Shown here: positions 36,597-51,604 of the stretch, one piece after another
How the letters are laid out: the number at the start of each line of letters is the position of its first letter
Position numbering within the stretch: the first letter of the stretch is position 1
Assembly (NCBI GenBank): GCA_902511575.1
Contig: CABXFU010000003.1
Location: 62,001 to 126,000 of the forward strand
Direction: 5' to 3'
DNA length: 64,000 nucleotides
From: an uncultured SAR86 cluster bacterium
GTDB taxonomy: Bacteria; Pseudomonadota; Gammaproteobacteria; Magnimaribacterales; D2472
Translations under genes and position numbers: made by a program
The notes under the pieces: generated by a model
The model's input: the letters and a program-made list of their open reading frames with translations, nothing else
The model's database searches: none
What the model was told of the DNA's origin: nothing

Positions 36597-38405
36597 TTGT
36601 TTAATAAAGTAATAGAATTTTTTAGGGTGCTAGGTGAGCTGAGATATTTAATCCCAGTCATGCGTTATAAATTTCCAGACCCTGAAGATCCAGGTTCATT
36701 AGCTCACTTGTTTCAAGCCACAACAGAGCAATTCTCTCAAAGACCTTTCTTGTATTTTGAAGATGAAATGTGGACATATGATCATACCAATAAAGCAGCT
36801 AATAGCTTGGCAAGGTACCTTGTATCAACTGGTGTAAAGCATGGGGATAGAGTGGTCTTATTTATGGAGAATCGCCCAAGTTTTCTAATTTCATTGTTGG
36901 CTTTAAATAAGATTGGTGCAATAGCTGTATTAATTAATACCAGCCTAACGGGCGACCCATTGGTTCATTGCATTAACTCATCTGATGCAGTGAAATGTAT
37001 AGTAGGCGCAGAACGAGCTGAACCTCTAGAAGGTGTCTTAAATCAAATTAACATTACAAAACAAGAAGACTTTTTATGGGCTGAAGATACTGATCAATAT
37101 TCCTTACCAGATTGGGCAATTGATCTAAAAGCTCAATTAGATCTTTCTGACGATAAGAATTTAGAAGAAACAAATGCAGTAAGGATAAAAGATGTGGCCT
37201 GCTATATATTTACCTCAGGAACCACGGGTGTTCCAAAGGCAGCAATTTGTCCTAATCAAAAACTGATGGCTGCTTCGGTGAATATTAAAATAGCTGGTTA
37301 CAGAATCAATGAAACAGACTGTATGCATAATAGCTTACCTCTATATCATTCAACTGGCTTGATGTTAGGTATATGTGCAGTTATTCAAGCAGGAGCATCA
37401 ACATTTATCAAAAGAAAATTTTCTGCTTCTTCATTTTGGGATGAAGTGCAGCAATACAATACAACTGCTCTTGTCTATATAGGAGAACTTTGCAGGTATT
37501 TAGCTAATACAGAGACAGTACCAGCAGAACAAAATAATCCTTTAAAGGTTATGGTTGGGAACGGTCTCAGACCAGATGTCTGGGATATTTTTAAAGATAG
37601 GTTTGGGGTTGATAGGATTGTTGAAATATATGGTGCAAGTGAGGGCAATGCTTTGTTCATGAATCTATTAAATAAGGATAAAACCATTGGCATGACCAAT
37701 GCCCAAGTAGCTTTAATTGAATACGATGTTGCTGAAGATAAAATTATTAAAAATGAAGATGGGACGTGCAAAAAAATAACAAATCATGATCCAGGATTAT
37801 TGATTGTTTTTATATCACCAAATTCTGTTTTTAATGGTTACACAGATGCTCAGGCCACTGAAAAGAAAATCTTGAGAGATGTTTTTGAAGAAGGAGATGC
37901 CTGGTTTAATACAGGAGACCTCATTAAAACAGTTGATGTGGGTTATGCATTGGGTAAAACTCACTATCAATTCGTCGATCGAGTTGGTGATACTTTTAGA
38001 TGGAAATCAGAGAATGTCTCAACGAATGAAGTTGGTGAGATTTTAAATGGTTTCAAAGATGTGAATATGTCCAATGTATACGGGGTAGAAATACCAGGTT
38101 GTGAGGGAAGAGCTGGCATGGCTGCTTTTAGTCTTGAAGATGCTAGTAGCTTTGACTGGAATGCCTTCTCTGAGCATGTGGATAATAGCCTCCCTAAATA
38201 TGCTCGCCCTCTTTTTATAAGGATTATTGAGGAAATGGATACCACAGGGACTTTTAAATTAAAGAAAAATGACCTTAGAAATGAGGCATTTAATATTGAT
38301 AAAGTGACTGATCAGATCTATTGCTTGAAACCTAACTCTAGCAATTATGAAGTTTTAGATAAGGAATGGTTGCAAACCATCAATTCTGAACAAGCTGGAT
38401 ATTAA
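36597..38405 (+). CDS. FATP/very-long-chain acyl-CoA synthetase-like protein
   Basis: A 602-residue AMP-forming ligase that would activate fatty or other carboxylic acids to CoA thioesters. The start is TTG 36597 with GGGG eight bases before it. Motifs: P-loop CYIFTSGTTGVPKAA, NSLPLYHSTGLMLG, the acyl-site region VEIYGASEGN, WFNTGDLIKT and the hinge region VDRVGDTFRWKSENVST characteristic of the FATP/VLACS (SLC27-like) branch rather than FadD. The upstream 144-base gap contains TTATGTCA (36487-36494), one arm of the palindrome found near the TetR gene. It is followed 26 bases later by a trans-acting-enoyl-reductase-like gene. Confidence 0.9.
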   Translation: MFNKVIEFFRVLGELRYLIPVMRYKFPDPEDPGSLAHLFQATTEQFSQRPFLYFEDEMWTYDHTNKAANSLARYLVSTGVKHGDRVVLFMENRPSFLISLLALNKIGAIAVLINTSLTGDPLVHCINSSDAVKCIVGAERAEPLEGVLNQINITKQEDFLWAEDTDQYSLPDWAIDLKAQLDLSDDKNLEETNAVRIKDVACYIFTSGTTGVPKAAICPNQKLMAASVNIKIAGYRINETDCMHNSLPLYHSTGLMLGICAVIQAGASTFIKRKFSASSFWDEVQQYNTTALVYIGELCRYLANTETVPAEQNNPLKVMVGNGLRPDVWDIFKDRFGVDRIVEIYGASEGNALFMNLLNKDKTIGMTNAQVALIEYDVAEDKIIKNEDGTCKKITNHDPGLLIVFISPNSVFNGYTDAQATEKKILRDVFEEGDAWFNTGDLIKTVDVGYALGKTHYQFVDRVGDTFRWKSENVSTNEVGEILNGFKDVNMSNVYGVEIPGCEGRAGMAAFSLEDASSFDWNAFSEHVDNSLPKYARPLFIRIIEEMDTTGTFKLKKNDLRNEAFNIDKVTDQIYCLKPNSSNYEVLDKEWLQTINSEQAGY

Positions 38406-38431
38406 TTAAATAATTTACAAAGGAGACTCTT

Positions 38432-39601
38432 ATGAGTGATAAGAATTTTGATGTTGTGGTTTATGGTGCAACAGGTTTTACTGGAAAGCTGGTTGTGGAA
38501 TACATGCTTAATCAATATGGGAATGATGAAAGCATTACTTGGGCCATGGCTGGAAGAAGTCATGAGAAATTAATTGCGGTCAGAGATGCTTTGGGCGTGT
38601 CCGATGATGTGGCTCTTTTAACAGTAGATAGTAATGATGAATCAAGCATTACAGAAATGGTTAAACAAACAAAATGCGTATTAACAACAGTTGGACCTTA
38701 CCAACTTTATGGCCCAAGCATTGTTAAACAATGTGCTGCTAATGGAACAGATTATGTTGATCTATGTGGTGAGCCAGGATGGATGCATGAAATGATCAAC
38801 GAGCATGCTGAGCAGGCCAAGGAGACTGGTGCAAGAATTGTCTTTTCTTGTGGCTTTGACAGCATACCTTTTGACTTAGGTGTTTACTTTTTGCAAAAAG
38901 AAGTTATGGCTCAACATGGTAAACCTGCTTCTAATATAAGAGGAAGGGTGCGGGCAATGAATGGTGAGTTTTCCGGTGGAACAGCGGCTTCATTAAGTGC
39001 GACCATGGCATCGTTAAAAGAAAAGCCAGAATTATTTGCAGTGCTGGCTAACCCATTTTCACTGTCGAATGGTTTTACTGGACCAGAGCAAGCTCCTGAC
39101 TCTAAACCTGTGTATGATGAAAAACTTGAAACCTGGGTCGCTCCATTTTTTATGGCGCCTATTAATACCAAAAATGTTCATAGATCTAATATCTTAATGG
39201 ACCATATGTATGGAGAAGATTTTTGCTATAACGAGATGTGGATTCAAGGACCAGGAGAGGAGGGTAAAGCTGCAGCAGAATTTGTTGGCAGCATGAATCC
39301 GTTGGCTGATGCACCAGCACCTGGTGAAGGTCCTTCTAAAGAATCAAGAGAGAATGGAAATTATGATGTACTCTTTTGTGCAGACTTGGCTGATGGATCG
39401 ACCATTCATGCAGCTGTTTCAGGAGATATGGATCCTGGATATGGCTCAACTTCTAAAATGATTGCTGAAAGTGCAATCTGTTTGGTTAAAGAATGTCCTG
39501 ATCTTGTTGGAGGTATTTATACTCCAGCACCAGCAATGGGCGAAAAACTTATTACAAGATTGCAAGCTAATGCTGGATTAGATTTTAGATTAGAGAAATA
39601 G
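38432..39601 (+). CDS. Saccharopine dehydrogenase-like / trans-acting enoyl reductase family protein
   Basis: A 389-residue NAD(P)-binding protein with GGAG nine bases before its ATG. The N-terminal Rossmann motif is VVVYGATGFTGKLVVEYM, followed by MAGRSHEKL, VLTTVGPYQLYGPSIVKQCAANGTDYVDLCGEP and FSCGFDSIPFDLGVYFLQ. This is the pattern of the family including the mycobacterial trans-acting enoyl reductase (Rv2953), which acts with polyketide synthases on lipids; most bacterial members are uncharacterised. Pairing with an acyl-CoA synthetase suggests an acyl-CoA substrate, an inference. It converges on the TetR gene. Confidence 0.85.
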   Translation: MSDKNFDVVVYGATGFTGKLVVEYMLNQYGNDESITWAMAGRSHEKLIAVRDALGVSDDVALLTVDSNDESSITEMVKQTKCVLTTVGPYQLYGPSIVKQCAANGTDYVDLCGEPGWMHEMINEHAEQAKETGARIVFSCGFDSIPFDLGVYFLQKEVMAQHGKPASNIRGRVRAMNGEFSGGTAASLSATMASLKEKPELFAVLANPFSLSNGFTGPEQAPDSKPVYDEKLETWVAPFFMAPINTKNVHRSNILMDHMYGEDFCYNEMWIQGPGEEGKAAAEFVGSMNPLADAPAPGEGPSKESRENGNYDVLFCADLADGSTIHAAVSGDMDPGYGSTSKMIAESAICLVKECPDLVGGIYTPAPAMGEKLITRLQANAGLDFRLEK

Positions 39602-39625
39602 CTCTAAGATACAAGTAATTCAATA

Positions 39626-40195
39626 TTACCTGTTATCGTTTGCAATCAAGAGGCATTGCCTGAGCATAGCCTTTTTAATCTGAGCGTTATTTAATTTTTG
39701 ACCTTGAAGCCTTGTCCACATTGCAAAGGATAGGCTTGCATGGAATAAATGCTTAGATTCAGCATCGAAACCTAAAACCTCGGGCAGGACTTCCTCGGTT
39801 TTATCTTTTATACGGTCTTGATACATTAAATAATTTTCTCGCAAAAATTCGTACTTCCACATTTTAGAAACAGTCATAAACATAATTAATTTATGTTTTT
39901 CATAGCCTGCATTCATTTGATTTGCGAGGGATTGGAGTCGAACCTCAAATGATGAGGAGGGGTCGTACTTTAAATTAAAATCATAATCCTTGCTTAAGTC
40001 TGCATCTACAGCCTTGAAGAGGTTTTCCATTTCATCAAATTGTCTGAAAACAGTTCTTATTCCAACCCCAGACTCATCAGCAACTTGTTGGGCAGTCGGT
40101 TCTAAATTACCTTCTTTGAATAATTTAATGCAAGCATCCACGATAAGTTTTTGACTATTGATGCTTCGTAGATTTCTTCCGTCTTGTTTTGCCAT
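39626..40195 (-). CDS. TetR/AcrR family transcriptional regulator
   Basis: A 189-residue regulator. The N-terminal helix-turn-helix is clear: LIVDACIKLFKEG, TAQQVADESGVGIRTVFRQFDEMENLFKAV. The C-terminal ligand/dimer domain is unspecific. It is divergent from the 12-gene operon starting at 40251, with a perfect 33-bp palindrome between the two starts covering both -35 elements, so it very probably represses itself and that operon. The effector is unknown; the operon content suggests a hydrophobic, electrophilic or halogenated compound. Confidence 0.88.
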   Translation of the reverse strand: MAKQDGRNLRSINSQKLIVDACIKLFKEGNLEPTAQQVADESGVGIRTVFRQFDEMENLFKAVDADLSKDYDFNLKYDPSSSFEVRLQSLANQMNAGYEKHKLIMFMTVSKMWKYEFLRENYLMYQDRIKDKTEEVLPEVLGFDAESKHLFHASLSFAMWTRLQGQKLNNAQIKKAMLRQCLLIANDNR

Positions 40196-40250: not shown

Positions 40251-41174
40251 ATGAATAGAGTAACTGAAACCTTAGGGGTTAAGTATCCAATCATTCAAGC
40301 GCCCATGGGATGGATTGCCAGAAGTCAGCTAGCTTCTGCTGTTTCAAATGCAGGAGGATTTGGCATCATCGAAACTTCTTCTGGAGAGACTGAAAATTGC
40401 AAAGCTGAGATTTTAGCTATGTCAAAACTCACAGATAAACCCTTTGGTGTGAATTTGCCCTTAATGTTCTTAAGAGACGAGAGCATGATTGAATTGGTGT
40501 TAGAGCAGGGCATAAAGTTTGTCACTACTTCTGCTGGCGATCCTGGGAAATACATTCATATACTTAAAGATGCAGGTATTAAGGTCTTTCATGCTGTGCC
40601 CAGTGTTGCTGGAGCTGTAAAAGCTGCAAATGCAGGTGTGGATGGCTTGGTTGTTGAAGGCACGGAGGGTGGGGGTTTTAAAAGTCCTGAAGAGGTTGGC
40701 TTGATAGTGTTAATTCAAGCAATTAGACAACATACTGACTTGCCTATTGTTGCAGCGGGTGGAATTGTTGATGGAATTGGTATGGCTGCAGCTTTTGCAG
40801 CTGGAGCAGAAGGTATACAGATGGGAACTAGGTTTGTATCTTCTAAAGAAAGTCCAGTGCATGACAACTTTAAAAATTCAATTATTGATTCAGATGAGCA
40901 GGGAACATGGATTCTCAATAAAAAATCAAAACCTTGCATCAGAGCCCTAAAAACAGAATTTACCGAAAAAATACATGAAGCTGGTGTCATGGAGATGACT
41001 GACATGATGAAAATTCAAGATCTCTACTTTGGAGGAGATATGAATTCAGCGCCAGCGCTGACTGGCCAGTCAGCAGGATTGATTGATACAGTCAAACCAG
41101 TTGCTCAAATTATCGATGAAACCATTGACGAATTTAATGAGGCATGCAAAAGAATGTCTGCACAGAAATTCTAA
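40251..41174 (+). CDS. Nitronate monooxygenase-like flavoprotein (copy 1)
   Basis: Start chosen at ATG 40251 (MNRVTETLGVKYPIIQAPM); the open frame extends upstream into the TetR gene but that part is not expected to be coding. The 307-residue protein has the 2-nitropropane dioxygenase TIM-barrel pattern: IIQAPMGWIARSQLASAVSNAGGFGIIE, PFGVNLPLM, the FMN site DLPIVAAGGIVDGIGMAAAFAAGAEGIQMGTRFVSSKES. The loop that in nitronate monooxygenases carries a catalytic His (E-A/C-GGH) reads GTEGGGF here, so true nitronate oxidation is doubtful and an enoyl-reductase-like or other role is possible. First gene of the operon. Confidence 0.83.
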   Translation: MNRVTETLGVKYPIIQAPMGWIARSQLASAVSNAGGFGIIETSSGETENCKAEILAMSKLTDKPFGVNLPLMFLRDESMIELVLEQGIKFVTTSAGDPGKYIHILKDAGIKVFHAVPSVAGAVKAANAGVDGLVVEGTEGGGFKSPEEVGLIVLIQAIRQHTDLPIVAAGGIVDGIGMAAAFAAGAEGIQMGTRFVSSKESPVHDNFKNSIIDSDEQGTWILNKKSKPCIRALKTEFTEKIHEAGVMEMTDMMKIQDLYFGGDMNSAPALTGQSAGLIDTVKPVAQIIDETIDEFNEACKRMSAQKF

Positions 41175-41176
41175 TA

Positions 41177-42217
41177 ATGAAAAGTTTGAACCCTATCCCA
41201 GTTATCGGGGTACCCGCTTCACCCTATACAAGAAAGATGGTTGCCTTACTTCGTTATAGAAGAATTCCATACATTGTAGAGTGGGGCGATGCGAGAGAGT
41301 TAATTAAAAAACATAATCTTGAGGCGCCAAAACCTGTTTTACTTCCTGTGATGATTTTTAAAGTTGATGGTGCGCATAAAGCAATCACTGATTCCACTCC
41401 AATCATTCACCATTTAGAGAATGAATTTCCTGATCGAGGAGTGATTCCTCACGACCCAAAACTTGCTTTTTTGAATTTTGTTCTTGAAGATTTTGGGGAT
41501 GAGTGGGTCACAAAATATATGTTTCATTACAGATGGCACTTCAAAGAGGACATAGATAAAGCAGGCAACATTTTGCCATTATTGCACGATGTGAGTCTTG
41601 ATCATGAATCACATAAAGCTTTCAAACAGGGTATTACTGAATTACAGATAAGCCGACTTTGGGTTGTAGGTTCAAATGAAATAACGGCTCCAATTATTGA
41701 GTCAAGTTACAAGAGATTCCTGCAACAGCTTGAAGATTGCTTGTCAAAGAATGCATTTTTATTTGGCAGTCGTCCATCATCAGCCGATTATGCAATATTT
41801 GGTCAATTGTCAGCATTAATAGGCTTTGATCCAACATCTCGAACAATTGCTCATGAGATATCACCGCGAGTCATTGCATGGCAGGATCGTATGGAGGACA
41901 TGAGTGGCATAGATCCAGCGGATGAGGATTGGTTGAGTTATGAGGTTGCCCAAGAGGATTTAGCGGACATCTTTCAAGAGGTCGGCCAAGTTTATTTACC
42001 CGCACTCTTAGCAAATGCAAAAGCGATCGCTGCTGATGAGAAGACCTGGACCACTCAAATAGACGGTGCTCAATGGGAACAGCGCAGCTTCACCTATCAA
42101 GCAAAATGCTTGCAATGGATTAATGATGAATTTAATGCTTTAAATGATAATGATCAAAATCAAATTATGGCCTTTTTAAAGAAAACTGGTTGTGAGGATT
42201 TAATTCTTGGGAGATAG
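41177..42217 (+). CDS. Glutathione S-transferase-like protein with extended C-terminus
   Basis: Start at ATG 41177, two bases after the previous stop (an upstream ATG at 41144 would overlap). The 346-residue protein has a thioredoxin-fold GST N-terminus (PVIGVPASPYTRKMVALLRYRRIPYIVEW, then LPVMIF and a SNAIL-type DSTPIIHHLENEFP) and an all-helical C-terminal domain with SSADYAIFGQLSAL. It is over 100 residues longer than ordinary GSTs; the final ~80 residues include a Trp-rich segment (TWTTQIDGAQWEQRSF). The SPYT motif suggests a Ser or Cys-like active site. Substrate unknown. Confidence 0.8.
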   Translation: MKSLNPIPVIGVPASPYTRKMVALLRYRRIPYIVEWGDARELIKKHNLEAPKPVLLPVMIFKVDGAHKAITDSTPIIHHLENEFPDRGVIPHDPKLAFLNFVLEDFGDEWVTKYMFHYRWHFKEDIDKAGNILPLLHDVSLDHESHKAFKQGITELQISRLWVVGSNEITAPIIESSYKRFLQQLEDCLSKNAFLFGSRPSSADYAIFGQLSALIGFDPTSRTIAHEISPRVIAWQDRMEDMSGIDPADEDWLSYEVAQEDLADIFQEVGQVYLPALLANAKAIAADEKTWTTQIDGAQWEQRSFTYQAKCLQWINDEFNALNDNDQNQIMAFLKKTGCEDLILGR

Positions 42218-42219
42218 AG

Positions 42220-43305
42220 ATGGAGGTATTAAGAACACCTGATGAGAGGTTTAATGGTTTAAAGGAATATCCTTTTGAGCCTCATTACACAAACATTAAA
42301 ACTCATGATGGAACAACATTAAGAATTCATCATATAGATGAAGGGCCAAAGGATGGCCCAATTCTTTTAGCTATGCATGGGCAACCAGTTTGGAGTTATT
42401 TATATGCAAGAATGATTCCATTTTTAGTTAAAGCTGGTATTAGGGTAATAGCTCCAGACTTACCAGGCTATGGCAAATCAGACAAACCAGCTGCCAGAGA
42501 AGATTACAGCTATCAAAATCAAGTGGATTGGATGGGTGAATGGTTGAAAGAAAATAATTTTTTAAATTTAACTTTTTTTGGTCAGGACTGGGGAGGTTTG
42601 ATTGGGCTCAGAATGGTTGCACAAGATCCCGATAGATTTATTAAGGTATCCATGGGAAATACTGGATTACCATATAACCCAGATGTTCCTCAAGAAGTAA
42701 TTGAAAAGGTCAAACAGTTCAGAGCAAGTAATTTAAAGCTTACTCCAATGAGTATGCAAAAAGAGGTTATGCAGATGGATGGAAAAAACCTTTTAAAAGA
42801 TTCATCAACTGCATTTCATCCATCATTAAAGTTTATGTATTGGCAAAAATTTTGCTGGGATACAGAAAAGTTACCTGTAGGATTTATTAACTCAACCATG
42901 ATGGAAAAAAGATCAAAAATTTCTATGATGGGGCAGTATCTTTTTGAAAATTTAGGCTTAGCAAAGATCTCACCATTTACCTCTGACCTGGTGAAGGCTT
43001 ATGAAGCACCTTTTCCAGATCCATCTTACAAAATGGGTCCTCGTGCAATGCCCAGTCATGTTCCAACTCTTCCAGATCAATCTTTAGAAGCTCAGAAAAA
43101 GGCAAGAGAATTCTTTAAAACCTCAACCAAACCATTCTTAGCAGTTTTTGCTGGCGATGATCCGGTAACCAATGGCATTGAAAAAGACGTTCTAAAAATG
43201 GCACCAAATGCAAAAAGCGCACCTCATATTGGAGGAGGGCATTTTTATCAATGGACAAGACCAAAAAAATTATCTGATATTCTTATATCTTTTATAAAGG
43301 AATAA
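42220..43305 (+). CDS. Haloalkane dehalogenase-like alpha/beta hydrolase (subfamily I type)
   Basis: A 361-residue alpha/beta hydrolase. Motifs: oxyanion-hole [15 protein letters not shown] (about 53), [15 protein letters not shown], nucleophile elbow [14 protein letters not shown] with Asp at about 123 followed by Trp (halide-stabilising position), acid Asp in [10 protein letters not shown] (about 312) and His in GGGHFYQW (about 340). Length and layout fit haloalkane dehalogenase subfamily I (DhlA/DmbB-like). It would hydrolyse a carbon-halogen bond by an ester intermediate. The closely related fluoroacetate dehalogenases and epoxide hydrolases differ at the Trp/Tyr positions, so the halide role is likely but unproven. 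Confidence 0.8.
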
Positions 43306-43307
43306 AT

Positions 43308-43991
43308 ATGATTGATTTTTATACAGCCCCAACTCCTAACGGCCATAAAGTTTCTTGTAGTCTAGAAGCCATGGAATTAGATTATGAAACCCATGTAATT
43401 AATTTGTCTGAGAATGAGCAAAAGGAGCCTGATTTTCTTGCAATTAGCCCTAACGGAAGAATTCCCGCAATTGTAGACAGAGATGCCAATAATTTGGCTA
43501 TTTTTGAATCAGGAGCCATCATGATTTATCTTGCAGAAAAGACTGGGAAGCTGATGCCTAGAGATCTTAATGAGAAAGCAAAAGTTTTAGAATGGCTAAT
43601 GTTTCAGATGGGCGGAGTTGGACCCATGATGGGGCAAGCAAATGTCTTTTTTAGATATTTTCCAGAAAAAATTCAACCGGCCATTGATCGTTATCAAAAT
43701 GAAGGCAGAAGACTATTTGAGGTTTTGGATACTCATTTAGCTAAACAAGAATGGCTGGCAAAAGAATACTCAATAGCAGATATTGCTAACTGGTGCTGGG
43801 TGAGAACACATAAATGGTCAGGAATTTCAGTTGAGGGATTGAATCACCTTGAGCGATGGGTAAAAGCAATGTACGAACAGCCAGGAATGGTTGCAGGTAT
43901 AGCAGTCCCTGTAAAAATTGAGAGTCTGCTAAATGATGATAAAAAAATGAAAGAGTTTACAAAGAATGCTGAGAAAATGGTTAAAAAATAA
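43308..43991 (+). CDS. Glutathione S-transferase (Ure2p/YfcG-like)
   Basis: A 227-residue canonical GST. N-terminal thioredoxin-like domain: [32 protein letters not shown], with the TPNGHK pattern of nu-class/Ure2p-like enzymes such as YfcG, then [14 protein letters not shown] and [19 protein letters not shown] for gamma-glutamyl recognition. The C-terminal helical domain includes [18 protein letters not shown]. YfcG-type enzymes show glutathione-disulfide reductase activity rather than classic transferase activity. Spaced 2 bases from the dehalogenase-like gene and 13 from the next GST. Confidence 0.9.
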
Positions 43992-44004
43992 ATAGGAGAT
44001 AATT

Positions 44005-44619
44005 ATGTTGAAAGTTCACTTTGTTGCTGGCACTAGAGCAGGACGAATAGTCTGGCTTCTAGAGGAATTAGGATTGGAATATGAAGTTAATATTATGCCA
44101 TTTACAAAAGAAGGGTTGAAATCTGCAGAGCATAGATCAAGGCATGCTCTTGGTAGGGTGCCTGTATTAGAAGATGGAGATATTTCAATTTTTGAATCTG
44201 GCGCCATCATCGATTATGTTTTAGAAAGACATAAGAATGGAGGATTGAAGCCAAACTCAGATGCTCCTGAATTTCCTTTTTATCTCCAGTGGTACCATTA
44301 TTGTGAGGGAATGGTCATGCCTCCAATGAATCAAATAGTTGTGCAGACTATTTTATTGCCACCAGACCGAAGAGATGAGACTGTTTTAAATCAGGCAAAA
44401 AATTTACTCACAAAATCTTTAGCTCCAGTGAATGAGAATCTTGCTGATAAAGATTACCTAATTGGAGATTTCTCAGGTGCAGATCTTATGCTTGGACACT
44501 CATGTTTCATGGCTAATAGATTGGGGTGCGTGAATGACGAGATGCAAAACATTAAAGATTATGTTGCAAGAATAAATGCGAGACCTGCTTTTCAGAAAGC
44601 AATTACTTTGGGAGAGTAA
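44005..44619 (+). CDS. Glutathione S-transferase
   Basis: A 204-residue GST of a different subgroup from its neighbour: N-terminus LKVHFVAGTRAGRIVWLLEELGLEYEVNIMPF, RHALGRVPVLEDGDISIFESGAIIDYVLERH, then a helical C-terminal domain with DKDYLIGDFSGADLMLGHSCFMANRLG and INARPAFQKAI. The TRAGRIVW segment with Arg resembles the 'SRS/R..W.L.E' GST3-like group. AGGAG precedes the ATG by 8 bases. The acceptor compound is unknown; proximity to the dehalogenase-like gene suggests thiolytic handling of the same compound class. Confidence 0.9.
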   Translation: MLKVHFVAGTRAGRIVWLLEELGLEYEVNIMPFTKEGLKSAEHRSRHALGRVPVLEDGDISIFESGAIIDYVLERHKNGGLKPNSDAPEFPFYLQWYHYCEGMVMPPMNQIVVQTILLPPDRRDETVLNQAKNLLTKSLAPVNENLADKDYLIGDFSGADLMLGHSCFMANRLGCVNDEMQNIKDYVARINARPAFQKAITLGE

Positions 44620-44621
44620 AG

Positions 44622-45035
44622 ATGGAAGTTAAAAACATGGTCACACCAAATCAAACTCAAATGAATGAGTTTCTTGAGGGCGATATTGATTCACCAATTT
44701 CAATGGTTAATCTTCTTAAATTTAAAGAAAAAGCTGAATACGAGGATGGCAGAGATACTGAAATGTCAGGAAAAGAGGCCTATCAAATTTATGCTACTGA
44801 AGTTCAAGAGCATTTAAGAAAAGTTGGAGCAGAAATAGTTTTTGGAGGAGCTATCAGCCGCTTGATGCTTGGAGAGGTTGAGGATCTCTGGGATAGCGTT
44901 GCAATCGCTAGATATCCAAGTAGAAAAGCCATGCTTGAAATGATGATGAGCTCAGATTATCAAGAGAGTGAGAAACATAGATCTGCAGGACTACTTGGGC
45001 AATTAAATATAGAAACAAAAGAAGGAGCTATGTAG
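44622..45035 (+). CDS. DUF1330-like (dimeric alpha-beta barrel) protein
   Basis: A 137-residue soluble protein two bases after the GST. The segment DSPISMVNLLKFKEKAEY and the later DLWDSVAIARYPSRKAMLEMMMSSDYQESEKHRSAGL match the DUF1330/EthD-type ferredoxin-like fold (the typical 'VNLLKFK...VxIVRYPSxxAFLxM...Y' pattern). Such proteins are usually small dimers accompanying catabolic enzymes; some members are isomerases or monooxygenases but most are untested. The stop overlaps the next GTG start by one base, suggesting translational coupling. Confidence 0.8.
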   Translation: MEVKNMVTPNQTQMNEFLEGDIDSPISMVNLLKFKEKAEYEDGRDTEMSGKEAYQIYATEVQEHLRKVGAEIVFGGAISRLMLGEVEDLWDSVAIARYPSRKAMLEMMMSSDYQESEKHRSAGLLGQLNIETKEGAM

Positions 45036-45505
45036 TGCTCAATAAAATTTTCCCTTCCGTAGCTGATAATAATTTTAATGGTCAAAAGATTGCTCTGTGG
45101 GGATTCATTTTATTCACAATTCTAATGACATGGCGGTCAATCGTTCATATGTTTTTTGAGAAATACGGATTTCATGATATTGGAAATTTTTTAACTATCG
45201 AAGGTGATCCTGATCCTATGCTGCTGATCTACAGATTTTTTTCTCTTTGGGGTTTTGTGCAGTTAATATTTTGTTTGGTTTGCTGGGTTGTAATTTTTCG
45301 CTACAGAGCACTCATTCCATTAATGTATTTATTTTGGTTATTTGAGTGGAGCTTTAGAACATTTGGATACCCTTTGATTAGAGAAGACATAGTTATTCAA
45401 GGAATTTATACAGTTGGTGCTACACCTGGAGCAGTTGGTGCTCCGTATGTAACTTTTGTTTTAATCATTCTTTTTAGCCTTTCGGTGATACAAAAAAATA
45501 ATTAA
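45035..45505 (+). CDS. Small integral membrane protein of unknown function
   Basis: A 156-residue protein starting at GTG 45035 with GAAGGAG nine bases before it, overlapping the DUF1330 stop. It has four likely transmembrane helices (about 20-38, 70-90, 93-112 and 135-152; e.g. IALWGFILFTILMTWRSIVHMFF, LVCWVVIFRY, YVTFVLIILFSLSVI). It is rich in Trp and Phe. I do not recognise a family. Position in the operon and the adjacent DUF4345 membrane protein suggest a role in import, redox or membrane anchoring, but nothing in the sequence shows which. Confidence 0.75.
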   Translation: MLNKIFPSVADNNFNGQKIALWGFILFTILMTWRSIVHMFFEKYGFHDIGNFLTIEGDPDPMLLIYRFFSLWGFVQLIFCLVCWVVIFRYRALIPLMYLFWLFEWSFRTFGYPLIREDIVIQGIYTVGATPGAVGAPYVTFVLIILFSLSVIQKNN

Positions 45506-45515
45506 GGAAAATATT

Positions 45516-46631
45516 ATGAGTCAATTTCAAACTTTAAAGTCAGATTTAACCCAATCAAGGATTGTAGATTCTAATTCTGTTTCAATTCATGAAGATGAAA
45601 TTGCTGTGAGAATTGAAAGTTATGCATTTACAGCTAATAACGTCACTTATGGCGTCGCGGGAGATACAATCGGGTACTGGAAATTTTTTCCAGCTAAAAA
45701 TAATGCAGATAATGAATGGGGCTGCATACCTATGTGGGGATTTGCAGAAATCACCCACTCAAATATTGAGAGTTTGAATGTTGGAGAAAGACTCTTTGGC
45801 TATTTTCCAGCTGCTGACTCATTAACTTTAAGTCCAACCAAAGTCTCAGATCAAAGTTTCAGTGATGGCAAAGAACACCGAAAAGAACTCCCGCCTGTTT
45901 ACAATAATTATGTGAGGCTTAATGGAGATCAAAATTACGATCCATCCATGGATGCAGTCAGAGCTCTTTTATTCCCACTTCATATTACAGCATTTTGTTT
46001 ATGCGACTCTTTGGCTGAAGATTCATACCTTGGAGCATCTCAAGTAATTGTAGTTAGCGCTTCGAGTAAAACTGCCATTGGTCTGGCTCAAGGTTTAGCT
46101 GATACTGAAAATGCACCAAAAATAGTTGGGCTTACATCTCCATCAAACTTAAAGTTTGTGGAAAACCTTGGCTGCTATGATGAAGTGATCTCTTACGATG
46201 AGCTCGATAATATAGATTATTCAAAGGGTTCTGTGATGGTTGATATGGCTGGTAATCGAGAAATTCTTGGAACCCTTCATAGTGAGCTGGGAGATAATAT
46301 GCTCAAGTGTCTCACTGTGGGCATGACTCATTGGGATAATGAGACCACTGCAGAAGATGCTTTAGGCCAAGCAATGCTCAGAGATAGAACTGAATTCTTT
46401 TTTGCCCCAGCTCACATCCAAAAACGCATTGGAGATTGGGGGCACGATGGCTATGCTGAAAAAACAAATTCGTTCATGACTGCTAGAGCAATTCAAAGTA
46501 AAAATTGGATGCAGGTCAAAGAGATTCATGGTTTAGAAAATTTTACTGGCACCTATGAAGAGATGGTTTCTGGAAATATTAATCCAAACGAAGGAATCAT
46601 CGTTAATCTAATCAATCACAAGGAGAAATAA
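45516..46631 (+). CDS. DUF2855 family protein (MDR-like)
   Basis: A 371-residue soluble protein preceded by AAGGAA. It matches the DUF2855 family, distant relatives of medium-chain dehydrogenase/quinone oxidoreductases: AVRIESYAFTANNVTYGVAGDTIGYWKFFPA at the N-terminus, GCIPMWGFAEI, GERLFGYFPAADSL, and a Rossmann-like segment VIVVSASSKTAIGLAQGLAD. The typical glycine-rich NAD(P) loop is modified to SASSKTA, so cofactor use is uncertain. No member's reaction is well established. It is 10 bases after the membrane protein and directly abuts the next gene. Confidence 0.82.
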   Translation: MSQFQTLKSDLTQSRIVDSNSVSIHEDEIAVRIESYAFTANNVTYGVAGDTIGYWKFFPAKNNADNEWGCIPMWGFAEITHSNIESLNVGERLFGYFPAADSLTLSPTKVSDQSFSDGKEHRKELPPVYNNYVRLNGDQNYDPSMDAVRALLFPLHITAFCLCDSLAEDSYLGASQVIVVSASSKTAIGLAQGLADTENAPKIVGLTSPSNLKFVENLGCYDEVISYDELDNIDYSKGSVMVDMAGNREILGTLHSELGDNMLKCLTVGMTHWDNETTAEDALGQAMLRDRTEFFFAPAHIQKRIGDWGHDGYAEKTNSFMTARAIQSKNWMQVKEIHGLENFTGTYEEMVSGNINPNEGIIVNLINHKEK

Positions 46632-47009
46632 ATGAAAAATGTTTTAAGAATAGTCGCAGGCCTTTTTGGAGCCTTTTTTTTAATAAGTGGATTGCAGTGG
46701 ATTATTGCTCCTGCAAGTATTGCAGAGCAACTTGGCATGCCCTTGTTGGAGGGTGTTGGCTTGAGTGCTCAGATTGGTGACATGGGAAGTTTCTTTATAA
46801 CTGTAGGTGTCATGACATTAATTGGGGTCCTCACGCAAACTCGTCATTGGTTTTACGCGCCTTCAATGTTATTGCTGGTGGCAGCTTTATACAGAACTCT
46901 TTCAGCTGTCCTATACGGCGCACCATTTGTTATGTCAGCAATTATTGTTGAGGTGGTTGTAGGTTTATTTTTAATTTTTGCTGGCCCAAGAATTGCAACT
47001 GAGGATTGA
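46632..47009 (+). CDS. DUF4345-like small membrane protein
   Basis: A 125-residue membrane protein with four predicted helices: VLRIVAGLFGAFFLISGLQWII, ITVGVMTLIGVLTQ, PSMLLLVAALYRTLSAVL and IIVEVVVGLFLIFAGPRI. The layout (helix, amphipathic loop MPLLEGVGLSAQIGDMGSFF, then three helices) resembles DUF4345/DoxX-like proteins. It starts immediately after the DUF2855 stop, with AAGGAGAAA upstream. Function unknown. Confidence 0.72.
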   Translation: MKNVLRIVAGLFGAFFLISGLQWIIAPASIAEQLGMPLLEGVGLSAQIGDMGSFFITVGVMTLIGVLTQTRHWFYAPSMLLLVAALYRTLSAVLYGAPFVMSAIIVEVVVGLFLIFAGPRIATED

Positions 47010-47013
47010 AATA

Positions 47014-48066
47014 ATGAAGCTGCTTAAATATATCTTTATCATTGGTCTTGTTGGCTTTATTTTAGTATCAGTTTTAACAAGAGTTCCTGCTGTTCAAGAT
47101 CGGCTTATGTTTAGATTTGTTCAAACTCTTGGCGGCACCACTGCTGATCTAAATGACAATTCATTATCAGCTGTTGTATGTGGATCTAGATCTCCACTTC
47201 CATCTCCTGGAAGGGCGCAAACATGTGTTCTAATTAATGCAGGTGGCAATTATTATGTTGTAGATATTGGTGATGGCAGTGCAAATAATCTCAATAATTG
47301 GAGGATAGATGCAAATAAGATTCGCGGTACTCTTCTAACACATCTTCACTCAGATCACATATCAGATCTTGCGGATCTTCACTTAATGACTTGGGTTAAT
47401 TCTTCCCATACAAAGCCTATGGATGTTTATGGTCCTCAAGGAGTTGAGCTCGTAACTCAAGGTTTTGAGGATGCATATCAGTTGGACTACCAATTTAGAC
47501 ATGAGCATCATGGTGATGAAGTGGCGCCAAGGGATATCGCTGGGTTTAACGCCTTTCCAGTAGATTTATCAAACCCAGTTATCATTGATCAAGATGGTTT
47601 GAAGGTCACAGCGTTTAGGGTGCCTCATGATCCTGTTAAACCAGCTCTAGGCTATAGATTTGACTATAAGGGTAGGTCAATTGTTATTAGTGGTGATACT
47701 TCTTATAGTGAAAATCTTATCAAGCATTCTCAAGATGCTGACGTGCTATTTCATGAAGCTCAAGCCAATCATCAGCTAGCTATTATGAAAAAAGCTCTAG
47801 CTGATAATCAAGGGTTAGTAAAAATCTTAGATGATATTGAGACATATCATGCAACGCCCATTGAAGCAGCTAAAGCAGCTAACTTAGCAAATGTCGATCA
47901 TTTAATGTTTTATCATCTAACTCCTGCACCTAGAAATAATTTAACGGAAAGAATGTTTTTTCGAGGTGTTGATGAAATCAGAAAAGATTGGAGCTCATCA
48001 AAGGATGGCACTATGGTTGTTTTACCATTAGACTCAGATGAAATAATAATTACCGAGATAAATTAA
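47014..48066 (+). CDS. Membrane-anchored metallo-beta-lactamase-fold hydrolase
   Basis: Start at ATG 47014 (MKLLKYIFIIGLVGFILVSVL), giving a signal anchor; the upstream frame from 46978 lies in the previous gene. The 350-residue protein has the MBL zinc motif LLTHLHSDHISDLADLHLM (HxHxDH), a later GRSIVISGDTSYSENLI with the bridging Asp, a further His in LFHEAQANH and a C-terminal YHLTP. The RNase Z/arylsulfatase-like branch fits best. Presumably periplasmic or membrane-bound; lactone, ester or sulfate ester hydrolysis are candidate activities. The SDR start overlaps its stop (TAATG). Confidence 0.85.
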   Translation: MKLLKYIFIIGLVGFILVSVLTRVPAVQDRLMFRFVQTLGGTTADLNDNSLSAVVCGSRSPLPSPGRAQTCVLINAGGNYYVVDIGDGSANNLNNWRIDANKIRGTLLTHLHSDHISDLADLHLMTWVNSSHTKPMDVYGPQGVELVTQGFEDAYQLDYQFRHEHHGDEVAPRDIAGFNAFPVDLSNPVIIDQDGLKVTAFRVPHDPVKPALGYRFDYKGRSIVISGDTSYSENLIKHSQDADVLFHEAQANHQLAIMKKALADNQGLVKILDDIETYHATPIEAAKAANLANVDHLMFYHLTPAPRNNLTERMFFRGVDEIRKDWSSSKDGTMVVLPLDSDEIIITEIN

Positions 48067-48854
48067 TGGATGTAAAAAATAAAAGGGTTGTTGTAACTGG
48101 TGCTGCCAGTGGAATTGGAAAAGCTCTTTGTGAAGCTTTTCATGAGGCTGATGCTCAATCCATAGTAGCTGTAGATATGAATCTAGACGGAGCACAAGAA
48201 ACAGCCGATTCAGTTAATGGCATTGCTGTTCAAGCAAATGTTGGCAATGAAAAAGACATAATTAATGTTATCCAAAAAGCAGATGAACATGCTGGCGGCA
48301 CAGATATTTTCTGTTCCAATGCAGGAATTGGGGGTGTGCCAGGATTTTTTGAAGTTGAAGCCTCGGATTGGCAGAATATTTGGGATGTGAACGTTCAATC
48401 TCATATCTTTGCAGCCAAACATGTTTTACCTCAAATGATTGAAAGAGGAGAAGGTTATTTAGTCAACACTTCATCAGCAGCCGGGCTTTTAACTCAATTG
48501 GGAGCAGCAGGTTACTCAGTGACTAAAGCTGCTGCGGTAAGTTTTGCTGAATGGGTGAAGATTACTTATGGAGAAAAGGGTATTGGTGTTTCTTGTCTTT
48601 GTCCTCAAGCAGTTAGAACAGCTATGACTGCTCAAGGCCCTGGTGTTGCAGGTGTCGATGGAATGATGGAACCCGATGTGGTTGCACAAGAAGTTTTGAA
48701 ATGCATTGCTGAAGAAAAATTTTTAGTATTACCTCATACAGAAGTAGCTGAGTATGTTTCAAGAAAGGGTAATGACAGAGATAGATGGATATCAGGAATG
48801 CAGAGACTGCAAAAGCAATATGAAGATTTTTTAACCCCAGTCGATATGAAATAA
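48066..48854 (+). CDS. Short-chain dehydrogenase/reductase
   Basis: A 262-residue classical SDR. The cofactor loop is VVVTGAASGIGKALCEAFHEA, with the acidic residue in VAVDMN favouring NAD(H). NNAG is replaced by SNAGIGGVPG. The catalytic Ser/Tyr/Lys lie in NTSSAAGLLTQLGAAGYSVTKAAAVSFAEWV (Ser, then YSVTK). It overlaps the MBL stop by one base and precedes the second nitronate-monooxygenase-like gene by 11 bases with GGAG. The substrate is likely a secondary alcohol or ketone intermediate of the operon's pathway. Confidence 0.9.
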   Translation: MDVKNKRVVVTGAASGIGKALCEAFHEADAQSIVAVDMNLDGAQETADSVNGIAVQANVGNEKDIINVIQKADEHAGGTDIFCSNAGIGGVPGFFEVEASDWQNIWDVNVQSHIFAAKHVLPQMIERGEGYLVNTSSAAGLLTQLGAAGYSVTKAAAVSFAEWVKITYGEKGIGVSCLCPQAVRTAMTAQGPGVAGVDGMMEPDVVAQEVLKCIAEEKFLVLPHTEVAEYVSRKGNDRDRWISGMQRLQKQYEDFLTPVDMK

Positions 48855-48865
48855 AAGGAGAGAAT

Positions 48866-49834
48866 ATGAAAACTAAGATTACAGAATTATTTGGCATCGA
48901 GCATCCTATTATTCAAGGTGGCATGCATCATGTTGGTTTTGCAGAATTAGCTGCTGCAGTATCAAATGCTGGCGGGCTTGGAACAATTACTGGTTTAACG
49001 CAAGGAACCCCTGAAAAGCTTGCTAATGAAATAGCTCGTTGCAAGGAGATGACCGATAAGCCTTTTGCTGTGAACCTCACTTTTTTGCCTTCTTTGACTC
49101 CTCCAGATTATCCAGGGTTGGTAGATGTAATTATTGGTGGCGGTGTTCCAATTGTTGAGACAGCAGGCAGAAATCCTGCCGAGTATTTGCCAGCTCTTAA
49201 AGAAGCCGGTATTAAGGTGATTCACAAATGCACCTCAGTAAGACATTCTTTAAAAGCCCAATCAATCGGGTGTGACGCAGTTTCCGTGGATGGTTTTGAG
49301 TGTGGCGGACACCCTGGTGAAGATGACATACCTAATTTTATTCTTTTACCAAGAGCTGCTGATGAACTTGAAATTCCATTTGTTGCCTCAGGCGGTATGG
49401 CTGATGCGAGAAGTTTAGTTGCGGCAATGGCTCTTGGAGCAGAAGGCATGAATATGGGTACAAGGTTTATAGCTACCCAAGAAGCTCCTGTTCATCAAAA
49501 TGTTAAAGATTCAATTGTGAATGCGTCGGAATTAGATACCAGATTAATTATGCGTTCTCTCAGAAATACTGAAAGAGTATTAAACAATGAAGCTGTAGAG
49601 CGTCTTATGGAAAAAGAAGCTGCTTTAGGTGACCAGCTCACCTTTCAAGATATAGCCGATGAAGTTGCCGGCGTTTATCCAAAAATTATGCATGAGGGCA
49701 CAATGGAAGTTGGAGCTTGGTCTTGTGGCATGGTTGCTGGATTAGTCAATGATATCCCAACAGTAAAAGAGTTAATCGATGGGATTATGGGCGAAGCAGA
49801 TGCAATTATTGGCAAGAGACTGGGAAATTTCTAA
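48866..49834 (+). CDS. Nitronate monooxygenase-like flavoprotein (copy 2)
   Basis: The last gene of the operon, 322 residues, same family as the first gene. Motifs: LFGIEHPIIQGGMHHVGFAELAAAVSNAGGLGTITGL, KPFAVNLTFLPSL, SVDGFECGGHPGEDD (the catalytic-His motif, E-C-GGH, intact here), EIPFVASGGMADARSLVAAMALGAEGMNMGTRFIATQEAPVH. Unlike copy 1 it therefore keeps the residue expected for nitronate or nitroalkane oxidation, though many family members act on other substrates. It converges with the reverse-strand HupE/UreJ gene 17 bases away. Confidence 0.88.
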   Translation: MKTKITELFGIEHPIIQGGMHHVGFAELAAAVSNAGGLGTITGLTQGTPEKLANEIARCKEMTDKPFAVNLTFLPSLTPPDYPGLVDVIIGGGVPIVETAGRNPAEYLPALKEAGIKVIHKCTSVRHSLKAQSIGCDAVSVDGFECGGHPGEDDIPNFILLPRAADELEIPFVASGGMADARSLVAAMALGAEGMNMGTRFIATQEAPVHQNVKDSIVNASELDTRLIMRSLRNTERVLNNEAVERLMEKEAALGDQLTFQDIADEVAGVYPKIMHEGTMEVGAWSCGMVAGLVNDIPTVKELIDGIMGEADAIIGKRLGNF

Positions 49835-49843
49835 TTCTAAAAT

Positions 49844-49859
49844 TTGGGATTTATCCCAA
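49844..49859. terminator. Weak bidirectional hairpin between convergent genes
   Basis: TTGGGA (49844-49849), loop TTTA, TCCCAA (49854-49859) form a perfect 6-bp stem in the gap between the convergent operon end (49834) and the HupE/UreJ stop (49851). The T-run is poor on either strand (AATTTTAGAA on the reverse side), so termination is only plausible. Confidence 0.35.
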
Positions 49860-50804
49860 GATCCCAGTAACTCTATCGATGAGCCAGAAAAAACCCATGC
49901 CACCCAAAATCAATGAGGTGAGGGTGGCAGATTGTTTATATAAATTAAATTTGTGAGAAAGCCAGATCACAGATCCAAATATTGGGACTAACATAAGCTG
50001 ACCAGCTTCAATGCCCAAGTTAAAGAACAGCAAAGAAAGTAGTAGCTGTTCATTCCCAATACCAATACCCGTTAGGGCATTAGCAAAACCTAGCCCATGC
50101 AGCAATCCAAAGCCAAATGCTATGAGCCAAGGCGTAGCCTGATATTTTTTGCTTTCACTAACCTCTAATGCAAGGTAAATGATAGTAAGTGCAATAATAG
50201 CTTCTACAGTAGCTTGAGGTAGCGACACCAACTCAAATACTGATAAGCCCAAGGTAATACTGTGAGCAAAAGTGAAAGCTGTAATTGTTTTAACTGCATT
50301 TAAAAATCCAGTAATTAAAAAAAGTAATCCTAGTATGAAGAGGATATGATCATTACCACTTAACAAATGATCAATACCCAAGGTGAAATATCCAACTGGA
50401 TAAACCTGCTCTTTAAATGGGATCTCTATTGATGATCTTTTGAGGTTCATTAGCCCTTCAAACACCTCTCCATTAGAGTGAGTGATTGTTACCAATGCGT
50501 CTGTGAGCACACTCAGATTATTGACTGAAATTATTTGGCCTTTGAGAGAGTTTTCACAATTTAACAATATTTTTTCAACCAGATATTTTCCTTTTTGACT
50601 GGGTAATTCACTCTTTCTTTTACAACTTTCAGGAAAAAAAACTTCTGCTCTAGCACCGATATTTTTAATCGGGTACATCCAACTAACCTCGTATTCATGT
50701 TCATTTAGTTCATTTATAACTAGGTGGGCTGGATTAAACTCATGAGAGAATAATGCAGTTGAACAAAAAAGTAATACTAATGTTTTAGCAAGCTTATAAG
50801 TCAT
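49851..50804 (-). CDS. HupE/UreJ-like membrane protein (copy 2)
   Basis: A 317-residue relative of the protein at 30604-31791. It has an N-terminal signal peptide (LAKTLVLLFCSTALFS), a shorter extracytoplasmic domain (about 20-125) and then six or seven helices with the HupE/UreJ_2 His motifs: LGIDHLLSGNDHILFILGL, FTFAHSITLGLS and GLLHGLGFANAL. The intramembrane His/Asp pattern suggests metal-ion binding; nickel/cobalt is the precedent, but no nickel enzyme is nearby. The start overlaps the upstream parvulin stop by one base, giving a DUF3604-parvulin-HupE transcription unit. Confidence 0.83.
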   Translation of the reverse strand: MTYKLAKTLVLLFCSTALFSHEFNPAHLVINELNEHEYEVSWMYPIKNIGARAEVFFPESCKRKSELPSQKGKYLVEKILLNCENSLKGQIISVNNLSVLTDALVTITHSNGEVFEGLMNLKRSSIEIPFKEQVYPVGYFTLGIDHLLSGNDHILFILGLLFLITGFLNAVKTITAFTFAHSITLGLSVFELVSLPQATVEAIIALTIIYLALEVSESKKYQATPWLIAFGFGLLHGLGFANALTGIGIGNEQLLLSLLFFNLGIEAGQLMLVPIFGSVIWLSHKFNLYKQSATLTSLILGGMGFFWLIDRVTGILG

Positions 50805-51604
50805 TAGAACTTATAATCTGGATTGATTATGACTTTGTATTGAGATCTTATTTCATCGATATATTCAGCAATTGCTTTATCTTGTGACTGCGAAAGATAA
50901 TCTTGTTGAACTTTTAATAGCACTTGTTCTAGAGAAGGGTAAAACCCAGTTTTAACTTCTTTTAACTTAATGATGTGGTGCCCAAAAGCTGATTCATGAG
51001 GTCCAGACCACTCATTTAAAGTAAGGTTTTCAATAGCTAAAAAGAATAACTCACCAAAATTTTTCTTAACGTCATTTGCGCTATTTTGATAAAAGTTTTT
51101 TCCTAGAAAAAAGGGATCACCTGCTAATTCAACTTGATTAGTTTGGTAATCATTGAAAGCTTTAACTGCTCTTTCTTTGGCATTGGATTCTTTTGAAAAA
51201 TAGTGATGAGAAAAAGAGTAGGTTGCTGGCACGAAGTAATTATTTTTATTTTGCTTAAAGAATTTTTTAAGATCTTCTTGCGAAGGCTCATTAGGAATTG
51301 TTTCTTGTTTTAAAAAAGTAATTTTCTGAGCCAATCTTCTCTTGATAATCCGATCTTCTTGATCTAATTCTAAAAGCAATGCCTCTCTATATAGAATCTC
51401 TTCTTGAACAAAGTTATTAATAATATTTGCTATTTCTTCATCGCTTGGAGGTCTTCCAACTTGTGATTTCCACGCTGAAAGAAGACTGGTTAACTCTTGA
51501 TCTGAAATATAAATATCTTTTGAATCTTGCTCAGCATTAAATCCAATATCAAGAAAAAAAATTAATAGCCCAATTACAAAAAATACAAGTATTCTAAGGT
51601 TCAT
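50804..51604 (-). CDS. Membrane-anchored parvulin-type peptidyl-prolyl isomerase
   Basis: A 266-residue protein with one N-terminal transmembrane helix (ILVFFVIGLLIFFLDIGF). A SurA-like helical region follows (VGRPPSDEEIANIINNFVQEEILYREALLLELDQEDRIIKRRLAQK), then a rotamase-like domain (about 120-245) with AFGHHIIKLKEV as its terminal strand. It corresponds to the C-terminal two thirds of the fusion at 29313-30614 and, like it, neighbours a HupE/UreJ gene. It probably folds or chaperones a periplasmic partner, perhaps the DUF3604 protein encoded 15 bases upstream. Confidence 0.85.
   Translation of the reverse strand: MNLRILVFFVIGLLIFFLDIGFNAEQDSKDIYISDQELTSLLSAWKSQVGRPPSDEEIANIINNFVQEEILYREALLLELDQEDRIIKRRLAQKITFLKQETIPNEPSQEDLKKFFKQNKNNYFVPATYSFSHHYFSKESNAKERAVKAFNDYQTNQVELAGDPFFLGKNFYQNSANDVKKNFGELFFLAIENLTLNEWSGPHESAFGHHIIKLKEVKTGFYPSLEQVLLKVQQDYLSQSQDKAIAEYIDEIRSQYKVIINPDYKF

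Follow-up and report, generated by a model that had tools for sequence, protein, structure and literature searches.

A conserved dehalogenase-like, glutathione transferase and reductase gene set in SAR86 resembles an undescribed pathway for halogenated or otherwise reactive lipid-like molecules

SAR86 bacteria are hard to grow, and their diet is poorly known. They are among the most abundant bacteria of the surface ocean, according to PMC11582366. The block considered here comprises twelve genes at 40251-49834 of the window (the whole 64,000-nucleotide stretch of SAR86 DNA analysed here). A sequence-only reading had proposed an undescribed catabolic or detoxification pathway, with all twelve genes running in one direction; they do lie on the + strand, and the families are as it named them. 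The block opens with NMOa (40251-41174, PF03060), a FabK/NMO-family flavoprotein without the conserved active-site His, followed by GSTa (41177-42217, PF13417), a large glutathione transferase-like protein of ~346 residues with an N-terminal SPYTxK motif, and HLD (42220-43305, NF002043), a haloalkane-dehalogenase-like alpha/beta hydrolase of long-cap form. Next come GSTb (43308-43991), a YfcG/YghU-like glutathione transferase that scores under the cut-off of both models, the small glutathione transferase GSTc (44005-44619), a DUF1330 protein (44622-45035; PF07045, 29.8 bits, cut-off 23) and TM1 (45035-45505), with four hydrophobic segments. The block is completed by DUF2855 (45516-46631, PF11017), with a modelled medium-chain reductase-like fold; TM2 (46632-47009), with four hydrophobic segments and a weak, below-cut-off match to DUF4345; MBL (47014-48066, PF12706), a metallo-beta-lactamase-fold hydrolase with one N-terminal hydrophobic segment; an SDR oxidoreductase (48066-48854, PF00106); and the flavoprotein NMOb (48866-49834). 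A TetR-family regulator (39626-40195, - strand, PF00440) is divergent from the operon, and a long-chain acyl-CoA synthetase (36597-38405, + strand; NF006134, 700.6 bits, cut-off 625) lies upstream as an accessory gene.

The genes are as closely packed as had been claimed, with intergenic gaps of -1 to 13 bases (in gene order -1, 2, 2, 13, 2, -1, 10, 0, 4, -1 and 11); the first value takes 41174 as the GSTa start, and the likely ATG is at 41177. Of the other same-strand gaps in the window, 27/41 are also 13 bases or shorter, a count in which ORFs run from their earliest possible start, so that some overlaps are overstated. Short gaps were rejected as operon evidence for this lack of specificity: packing by itself is not beyond chance in this window, and the conservation of the set is.

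That conservation was measured on loci fetched by HLD similarity, of which the best 80 of 199 were kept, giving 81 with the window; the best named matches are SAR86. Six loci (L041, L044, L070, L085, L088 and L099) carry other-taxon labels, may be mis-binned or transferred, and were retained in the counts, and L028 was assigned by hand to the near loci. Within this best-80-of-199 set, at least three other members share a run with HLD in 70/81 loci, so relatives do not scatter these genes singly and the proposed clustering stands. HLD is alone in 8/81 loci (two of these eight runs touch a contig end), accompanied by a sulfatase only in 1/81, and by just two other members in 2/81, both at contig ends. 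Member order varies widely among the same loci: the window's exact order occurs in 3/81, the window counted, and with an added sulfatase and second DUF1330 gene in three more, some other loci being interrupted by contig ends. The exact twelve-gene order is genus-level.

Forty-four of these loci (best 80 of 199) are distant; each was taken with 8 kb on both sides, and a match required at least 42% identity over half of the protein, anywhere in the locus. HLD is 44/44 by construction, because the loci were fetched through it. GSTa was found in 36, TM1 in 33, DUF1330 in 31, NMOb in 23, NMOa in 22, MBL in 19, GSTc in 15, DUF2855 in 14, GSTb in 8, SDR in 5 and TM2 in 3; GSTb, DUF2855, TM2 and SDR are therefore present in at most one third of the distant loci. 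Eight flanking genes (six at 32713-40195, two at 49851-51604) matched in 0/44 of them and the DUF3604 flank gene (51620-53695) in 3/44, and the upstream acyl-CoA synthetase is present in 9/9 near loci and 0/44 distant ones. Across 121 SAR86-order genomes, TM1 was matched in 91. HLD lies within 10 kb of GSTa in 68 of the 73 genomes having both, of TM1 in 66/74 and of the sulfatase in 36/55 (the other 19 not), adjacency being scored by start positions on one contig, so that contig breaks count as misses. Four SAR86 families were sampled: three have the cluster with these members, and the fourth has a smaller version; in family f4, neither GSTa nor the sulfatase lies within 10 kb of HLD. Gene families here are single-linkage clusters at 38% identity, which paralogues can enter (the GSTb cluster also includes the window GST at 53830), and the His, Cys and motif counts given below cover family members within fixed length limits.

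Conservation across the class, by contrast with that within SAR86, did not hold up: among 274 genomes, 3 of them SAR86, the cluster was seen within SAR86 only. DUF2855 exceeds its cut-off in 8/274 genomes, the window's own included, and a search at E 1e-6 that covered six of the seven other DUF2855 regions (G174 being the seventh) found no other cluster members in them. GSTa was matched in 18/274 genomes, the best non-SAR86 match, at 49% identity, being in G182, where its region contains an acyl-CoA synthetase match and no further member. HLD was matched at some level in 123/274 genomes, with near-full-length matches in the 3 SAR86 genomes only, among the matches listed best first.

HLD scores 320.6 bits against the haloalkane dehalogenase model NF002043, above its cut-off of 265. 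D123, W124, W208, D314 and H341 are invariant in 80/80 HLD orthologues; the D123-W124 pair (Asp nucleophile, DWG motif) is also kept in 9/9 paralogues, all nine of which have Glu at the position of D314. HMMER aligns W208 with the cap Trp of 5esr through a segment that scores weakly (2.7 bits), and we take W124 and W208 to be the halide-binding positions of DhlA, the second corresponding to DhlA W175. The HLD structure model is nearest to 5esr, with the dehalogenases DccA, DmrA and DpcA closest (38/88 sequences in the alignment used for structure and profile work). HLD shares with DccA/DmrA/DpcA/DhlA-type dehalogenases (5esr, 4mj3, 6f9o), presumably HLD-I, the fold, the nucleophilic Asp followed by Trp, the second Trp in the cap, and the catalytic Asp and His. 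It differs from them in length (361 residues vs ~308), in its cap inserts (152-204 vs 152-159 of 5esr, and 224-259 vs 179-193 of 5esr) and in Gln55, which is conserved in 80/80 orthologues, whereas 5esr, 6f9o, 4mj3 and 9/9 paralogues have Glu. HLD thus lacks the HGEP-motif Glu of HLD-I, and because Gln55 replaces it, we name the protein dehalogenase-like rather than a member of HLD-I; together with the cap inserts, Gln55 points to a possible shift in chemistry. Epoxides and esters are likewise among the substrates of alpha/beta hydrolases with this fold. The intact dehalogenase residues suit the halogenated or electrophilic substrate proposed earlier.

The S-P-Y-T-x-K motif of GSTa is present in 60/60 aligned sequences, and no PDB relative was found at E 0.001 with either the single sequence or a profile (21/60 sequences in the structure and profile alignment). 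Against the model of the isoprene-epoxide transferase IsoI (NF049950), GSTa scores 36.2 bits, below the cut-off of 300; LigE/LigF-type beta-ether cleavage was also considered as a possible role. The nearest PDB chains to GSTb are 4eci and 6tah.

The two flavoproteins bear on the suggestion of flavin oxygenases and a nitro compound. At the position that we take to be the active-site His of FabK/NMO, NMOa has Phe in 39/39 sequences, and the NMOb family keeps His in 35/35. NMOb resembles PA1024 (2gjl), the Pseudomonas aeruginosa NADH:quinone oxidoreductase, in its His and over its full length (362 bits across residues 2-319); it scores 92 bits against 4q4k, an entry named nitronate monooxygenase, and 6e2a, whose entry title is nitronate monooxygenase, ties its best score. 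Both proteins fall below the 453.1 cut-off of the FabK enoyl-ACP reductase model TIGR03151 (NMOa 269.8, NMOb 257.8 bits). With NMOb closest to a quinone reductase and NMOa without the conserved His, neither the label of flavin oxygenases nor the nitro substrate is supported, NMOb being far nearer PA1024 than 4q4k. On the same two features, nitro-compound catabolism was rejected as the main theme.

DUF2855 models as an MDR-fold, ene-reductase-like protein: its predicted structure (pLDDT 74; alignment input 24/31 listed sequences) is nearest to ene/double-bond reductases, with Z ~15-17 over ~300 residues. The modelled overall fold is that of prostaglandin reductase, CurA and plant double-bond reductases of the MDR superfamily, from which DUF2855 differs by an identity of only ~9-14% and by having its own Pfam family; no PDB sequence match was found for it, profile search included. 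TM1 matched no family in Pfam, NCBIfam or PHROGs, and TM2 nothing from PHROGs. MBL carries the motif H-[LN]-H-S-D-H in 37/37 sequences, with PNGM-1 the nearest PDB entry, followed by 8gyg and RNase Z.

In relatives, the cluster is joined by a sulfatase, a CurA-like reductase, an acyl-CoA dehydrogenase and a thiolase, none of which figured in the sequence-only reading. The sulfatase has the CxPSR motif in 39/42 sequences; the window's assembly (83% complete) contains only a distant relative, at 33% identity in part. The CurA-type, leukotriene-reductase-related family c13 occurs on the divergent side in 15 loci of other lineages (best 80 of 199), and acyl-CoA dehydrogenase, thiolase and long-chain acyl-CoA synthetase adjoin the cluster in different lineages. 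Some versions include a DSBA-family protein, presumably nahD-like, and in some lineages a desaturase/hydroxylase-type (fatty-acid-desaturase-like) protein, seen in 5 runs (best 80 of 199). A divergent TetR-like (c17) or LysR-like (c61, c113) gene precedes other versions of the cluster.

We tentatively favour, as a possibility that falls short of an assignment, a SAR86 catabolic locus that would deliver halogenated or electrophilic alkyl (lipid-like) compounds, a substrate class that we infer, to beta-oxidation. In the many relatives that carry the gene, a membrane-anchored, probably periplasmic sulfatase would take off a sulfate ester. The Asp nucleophile of HLD is predicted to displace halide, giving an alcohol, and the three GSTs may capture or scavenge electrophilic intermediates. 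SDR, DUF2855 and the two FabK-family flavoproteins could oxidize the alcohol and reduce enone- or quinone-like intermediates, after which the adjacent acyl-CoA synthetase, acyl-CoA dehydrogenase and thiolase would pass the product to beta-oxidation; the divergent TetR or LysR regulator is probably the substrate sensor. This catabolic reading is favoured by the conservation of the set across shuffled orders, the residues, NF002043 score and dehalogenase-nearest model of HLD, the ene-reductase-like model of DUF2855, the CurA-type and beta-oxidation neighbours, and the sulfatase. Against it stand Gln55 and the cap inserts of HLD, the loci where HLD is alone (8/81, best 80 of 199) or has just the sulfatase (1/81) or two other members (2/81), the 19/55 genomes whose sulfatase is not within 10 kb of HLD, the mere distant sulfatase relative in the window's assembly, the epoxide and ester cleavage by hydrolases of this fold, the lack of nearby GSTa and sulfatase in f4, and the fact that GSTs and reductases suit detoxification equally.

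A somewhat unlikely alternative is a locus that detoxifies oxylipins or reactive products of lipid oxidation (enals, enones, epoxides, quinones) of algal or photo-oxidative origin. HLD would then work as an esterase or as an epoxide hydrolase, conjugation would fall to the GSTs, and reduction to DUF2855/CurA and the flavoproteins. The three GSTs, the ene-reductase-like DUF2855, the CurA/leukotriene-reductase relative, the PA1024-like NMOb and the TetR gene all suit it, but the triad and both halide-binding Trp positions are invariant in HLD orthologues, and the sulfatase, acyl-CoA dehydrogenase and thiolase neighbours suit catabolism better. We consider it unlikely that the locus is part of a halogen-free steroid, terpenoid or aromatic catabolism, as generally proposed for SAR86 GSTs. 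PMC11582366 puts forward the degradation of steroids and aromatics by SAR86, with a part for GSTs, and the DSBA-family protein of some versions agrees with this; yet the annotated members include no ring-cleaving oxygenase (several small families carry no annotation), and the sole oxygenase-like companion is the desaturase/hydroxylase-type protein of 5 runs (best 80 of 199). A narrower form of the catabolic reading, the degradation of chlorosulfolipids or related halogenated alkyl sulfates, is decidedly improbable; it would combine membrane-level desulfation of polychlorinated alkyl sulfates from algae, C-Cl hydrolysis by the long-cap HLD, GST quenching and beta-oxidation. Chlorosulfolipids are reported from eastern Pacific coastal seawater in PMC13413282, and a literature search on their degradation by marine bacteria found nothing useful. 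A biosynthetic or membrane-lipid-modifying locus is very improbable, since the two small membrane proteins and the fatty-acid-desaturase-like protein of some lineages, which would suit it, are set against a complement dominated by hydrolases, GSTs and reductases, with no assembly synthase among annotated members. That the block is no functional unit, merely a run of tightly packed same-strand genes in a streamlined genome where short gaps are common (27/41 others at 13 bases or fewer), is scarcely credible, given eight flanking genes at 0/44 and operon genes conserved in rearranged orders (best 80 of 199).

No description of a pathway with this set was found among open-licence papers, in agreement with the earlier claim of novelty. 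The lipid, steroid and aromatic genes of PMC11582366 come from the same bacterial order, and the paper emphasises beta-oxidation, arylsulfatase and the number of GST copies; its main text, searched for the words 'dehalogenase', 'nitronate', 'gene cluster' and 'halogen', contains none of them. The conserved SAR86 set has the look of a pathway, so far undescribed, that breaks down lipid-like molecules which are halogenated or reactive in some other way. At the level of single families, DUF2855 gains a lead based on its modelled fold, and one NMO annotation is called into question. For SAR86 itself, a conserved dehalogenase-GST-reductase locus would narrow the search for substrates to a concrete class (natural organohalides or electrophilic lipids), and organohalogens made by algae might have a biological sink in it.

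Cluster-wide comparison places the twelve-gene block (40251 to 49834, forward strand) within a set of genes conserved across SAR86. Protein-family annotation agrees, in gene content and family assignments, with the sequence-only reading, which had proposed a TetR-linked operon for catabolism or detoxification. The genes are separated by gaps of -1 to 13 bases, a packing that is ordinary here (27 of the 41 other same-strand gaps in the window are ≤13 bases), and a TetR gene lies divergent from them. The host genome is 1.39 Mb in size and 83% complete, and SAR86 cluster genomes provide the best named matches to the haloalkane-dehalogenase-like hydrolase (HLD, 42220 to 43305; 99% and 96% identity). 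Beside the operon, two DUF3604 genes (51620 to 53695, reverse strand, and 56039 to 58009, forward strand; each >700 bits) lie on either side of genes for a GST and for a DSBA-family protein. Elsewhere in the window, one ORF (29313 to 30614) joins a GNAT acetyltransferase to weak PPIC-type rotamase and SurA-like matches, an unusual fusion, and arginine succinyltransferase pathway genes (AstA, aldehyde dehydrogenase, AstB; 32713 to 36452) lie immediately upstream of an acyl-CoA synthetase.

Conservation was assessed in the loci of the best 80 of 199 HLD matches, 81 with the window. HLD shares a run with at least three other core genes in 70/81 loci and is the sole core gene in 8/81. Gene order varies by lineage, with 40 distinct strings among the 81 loci, some arising merely from contig ends. 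Because the exact order of the window occurs in only 3/81 loci, the window among them, and in three more with a sulfatase and a second DUF1330 gene added, the twelve-gene form is the close-relative (genus-level) version of a wider, looser set. In the 44 loci whose HLD is more distant and whose sequence extends 8 kb to either side, recovery of the other operon genes ranged from 3 loci (TM2, a small membrane protein) to 36 (GSTa, the large GST, 41177 to 42217); eight flanking genes of the window were found in none, and the DUF3604 gene at 51620 to 53695 in three.

Across 121 genomes from four families of the SAR86 order, a near-full-length HLD is present in 81. Where both genes are carried, GSTa lies ≤10 kb from HLD in 68/73 genomes, the small membrane protein TM1 in 66/74, and a sulfatase in 36/55 (19/55 are without one nearby). 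The fourth family carries a smaller version of the cluster: TM1 is near HLD in 5/5 HLD-bearing genomes, GSTa or sulfatase in 0/5, and the two regions examined (L150, L151) contain HLD, DUF1330, TM1 and the MBL hydrolase, with an acyl-CoA dehydrogenase relative upstream. In one SAR86 genome (G088:C1:380644-385483), internal stops interrupt the HLD and GSTa matches, reflecting either a decaying copy or assembly errors.

In a class-wide survey of 274 genomes, three of them SAR86, no near-full-length HLD appeared outside SAR86 among the matches listed; the best non-SAR86 ones aligned as separate N- and C-terminal pieces. DUF2855 exceeded the cut-off in seven other genomes, and none of the six regions examined among these seven held another cluster member. 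HLD orthologues of 71-75% identity occur on contigs labelled K189A clade, Terriglobia, Woeseia, OCS116, Flavobacteriales and PS1 clade (L041, L044, L070, L085, L088 and L099), through either mis-binning or transfer.

The cluster also gains members in relatives. Many runs include a sulfatase, between DUF2855 and TM2 or elsewhere, whose nearest PDB entry is an exo-kappa-carrageenan S1 sulfatase; 39/42 carry the CxPSR motif, and the one member examined has a single N-terminal hydrophobic segment. The sole sulfatase relative in the genome of the window is a partial match (33% identity). The divergent regulator is TetR or LysR, and on the divergent side four loci (L055, L061, L080, L087) encode a CurA-type reductase, an acyl-CoA dehydrogenase, an MBL hydrolase and a thiolase, supplemented by a TPP enzyme (L055), a second HLD-like gene (L080) or DUF3604 (L087). 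Genes for a sodium:solute symporter, a desaturase-like protein or a member of the DSBA family appear in further lineages. At L069 (5462-6931), a single 489-aa ORF unites DUF1330 and a dehalogenase-like hydrolase (c89), which are two genes in L073 and L087, representing either a fusion or a sequencing error.

Residues 1-152 of HLD align to DccA (phmmer), and the cap region carries two insertions; among solved structures, the model (pLDDT 87) most closely resembles DccA, DmrA and DpcA. D123, W124, W208, D314 and H341 are invariant in 80/80 orthologues, the equivalence of W208 to the cap Trp of 5esr resting on a weak alignment segment. Gln55 is likewise invariant (80/80), and Glu occupies this position in 9/9 paralogues. 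Among the flavoproteins, NMOa has Phe in place of His at the FabK/NMO His position (39/39), and NMOb scores 362 bits against PA1024, described as an NADH:quinone oxidoreductase (PMC10033279), versus 193 for FabK and 92 for 4q4k; 6e2a, in the same PA1024 group, is still titled nitronate monooxygenase. GSTa (mean column identity 63%) returned no relative in a PDB search. DUF2855, a term not found in the open-licence literature searched, has no PDB match by sequence, and its model (pLDDT 74) adopts an MDR-like fold with ene-reductases nearest. In the PDB, MBL is nearest to PNGM-1, followed by a chain titled 'Arysulfatase' and by RNase Z.

We found no published description of the locus among the open-licence papers listed for SAR86 or bacterioplankton in combination with dehalogenases, GSTs, nitronate monooxygenase, DUF1330 or sulfatase; one may exist elsewhere. 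The chemistry that its parts would suit comprises desulfation, a dehalogenation or hydrolysis step, glutathione reactions, reduction of enones or quinones, and beta-oxidation. The genes, their clustering and the conserved residues are observed directly, and the chemistry and substrate are inferred from them. A halogenated lipid is our first choice of putative substrate, in view of the invariant halide-binding positions and of the acyl-CoA enzymes and sulfatase that accompany the cluster. Chlorosulfolipids have been reported in coastal seawater (PMC13413282); since a word search of that text returned none of 'dehalogenase', 'sulfatase' or 'degrad', their link to the locus is drawn in the present analysis alone. 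In its boldest version, the halogenated-lipid reading would make chlorosulfolipids the substrate of this SAR86 locus.
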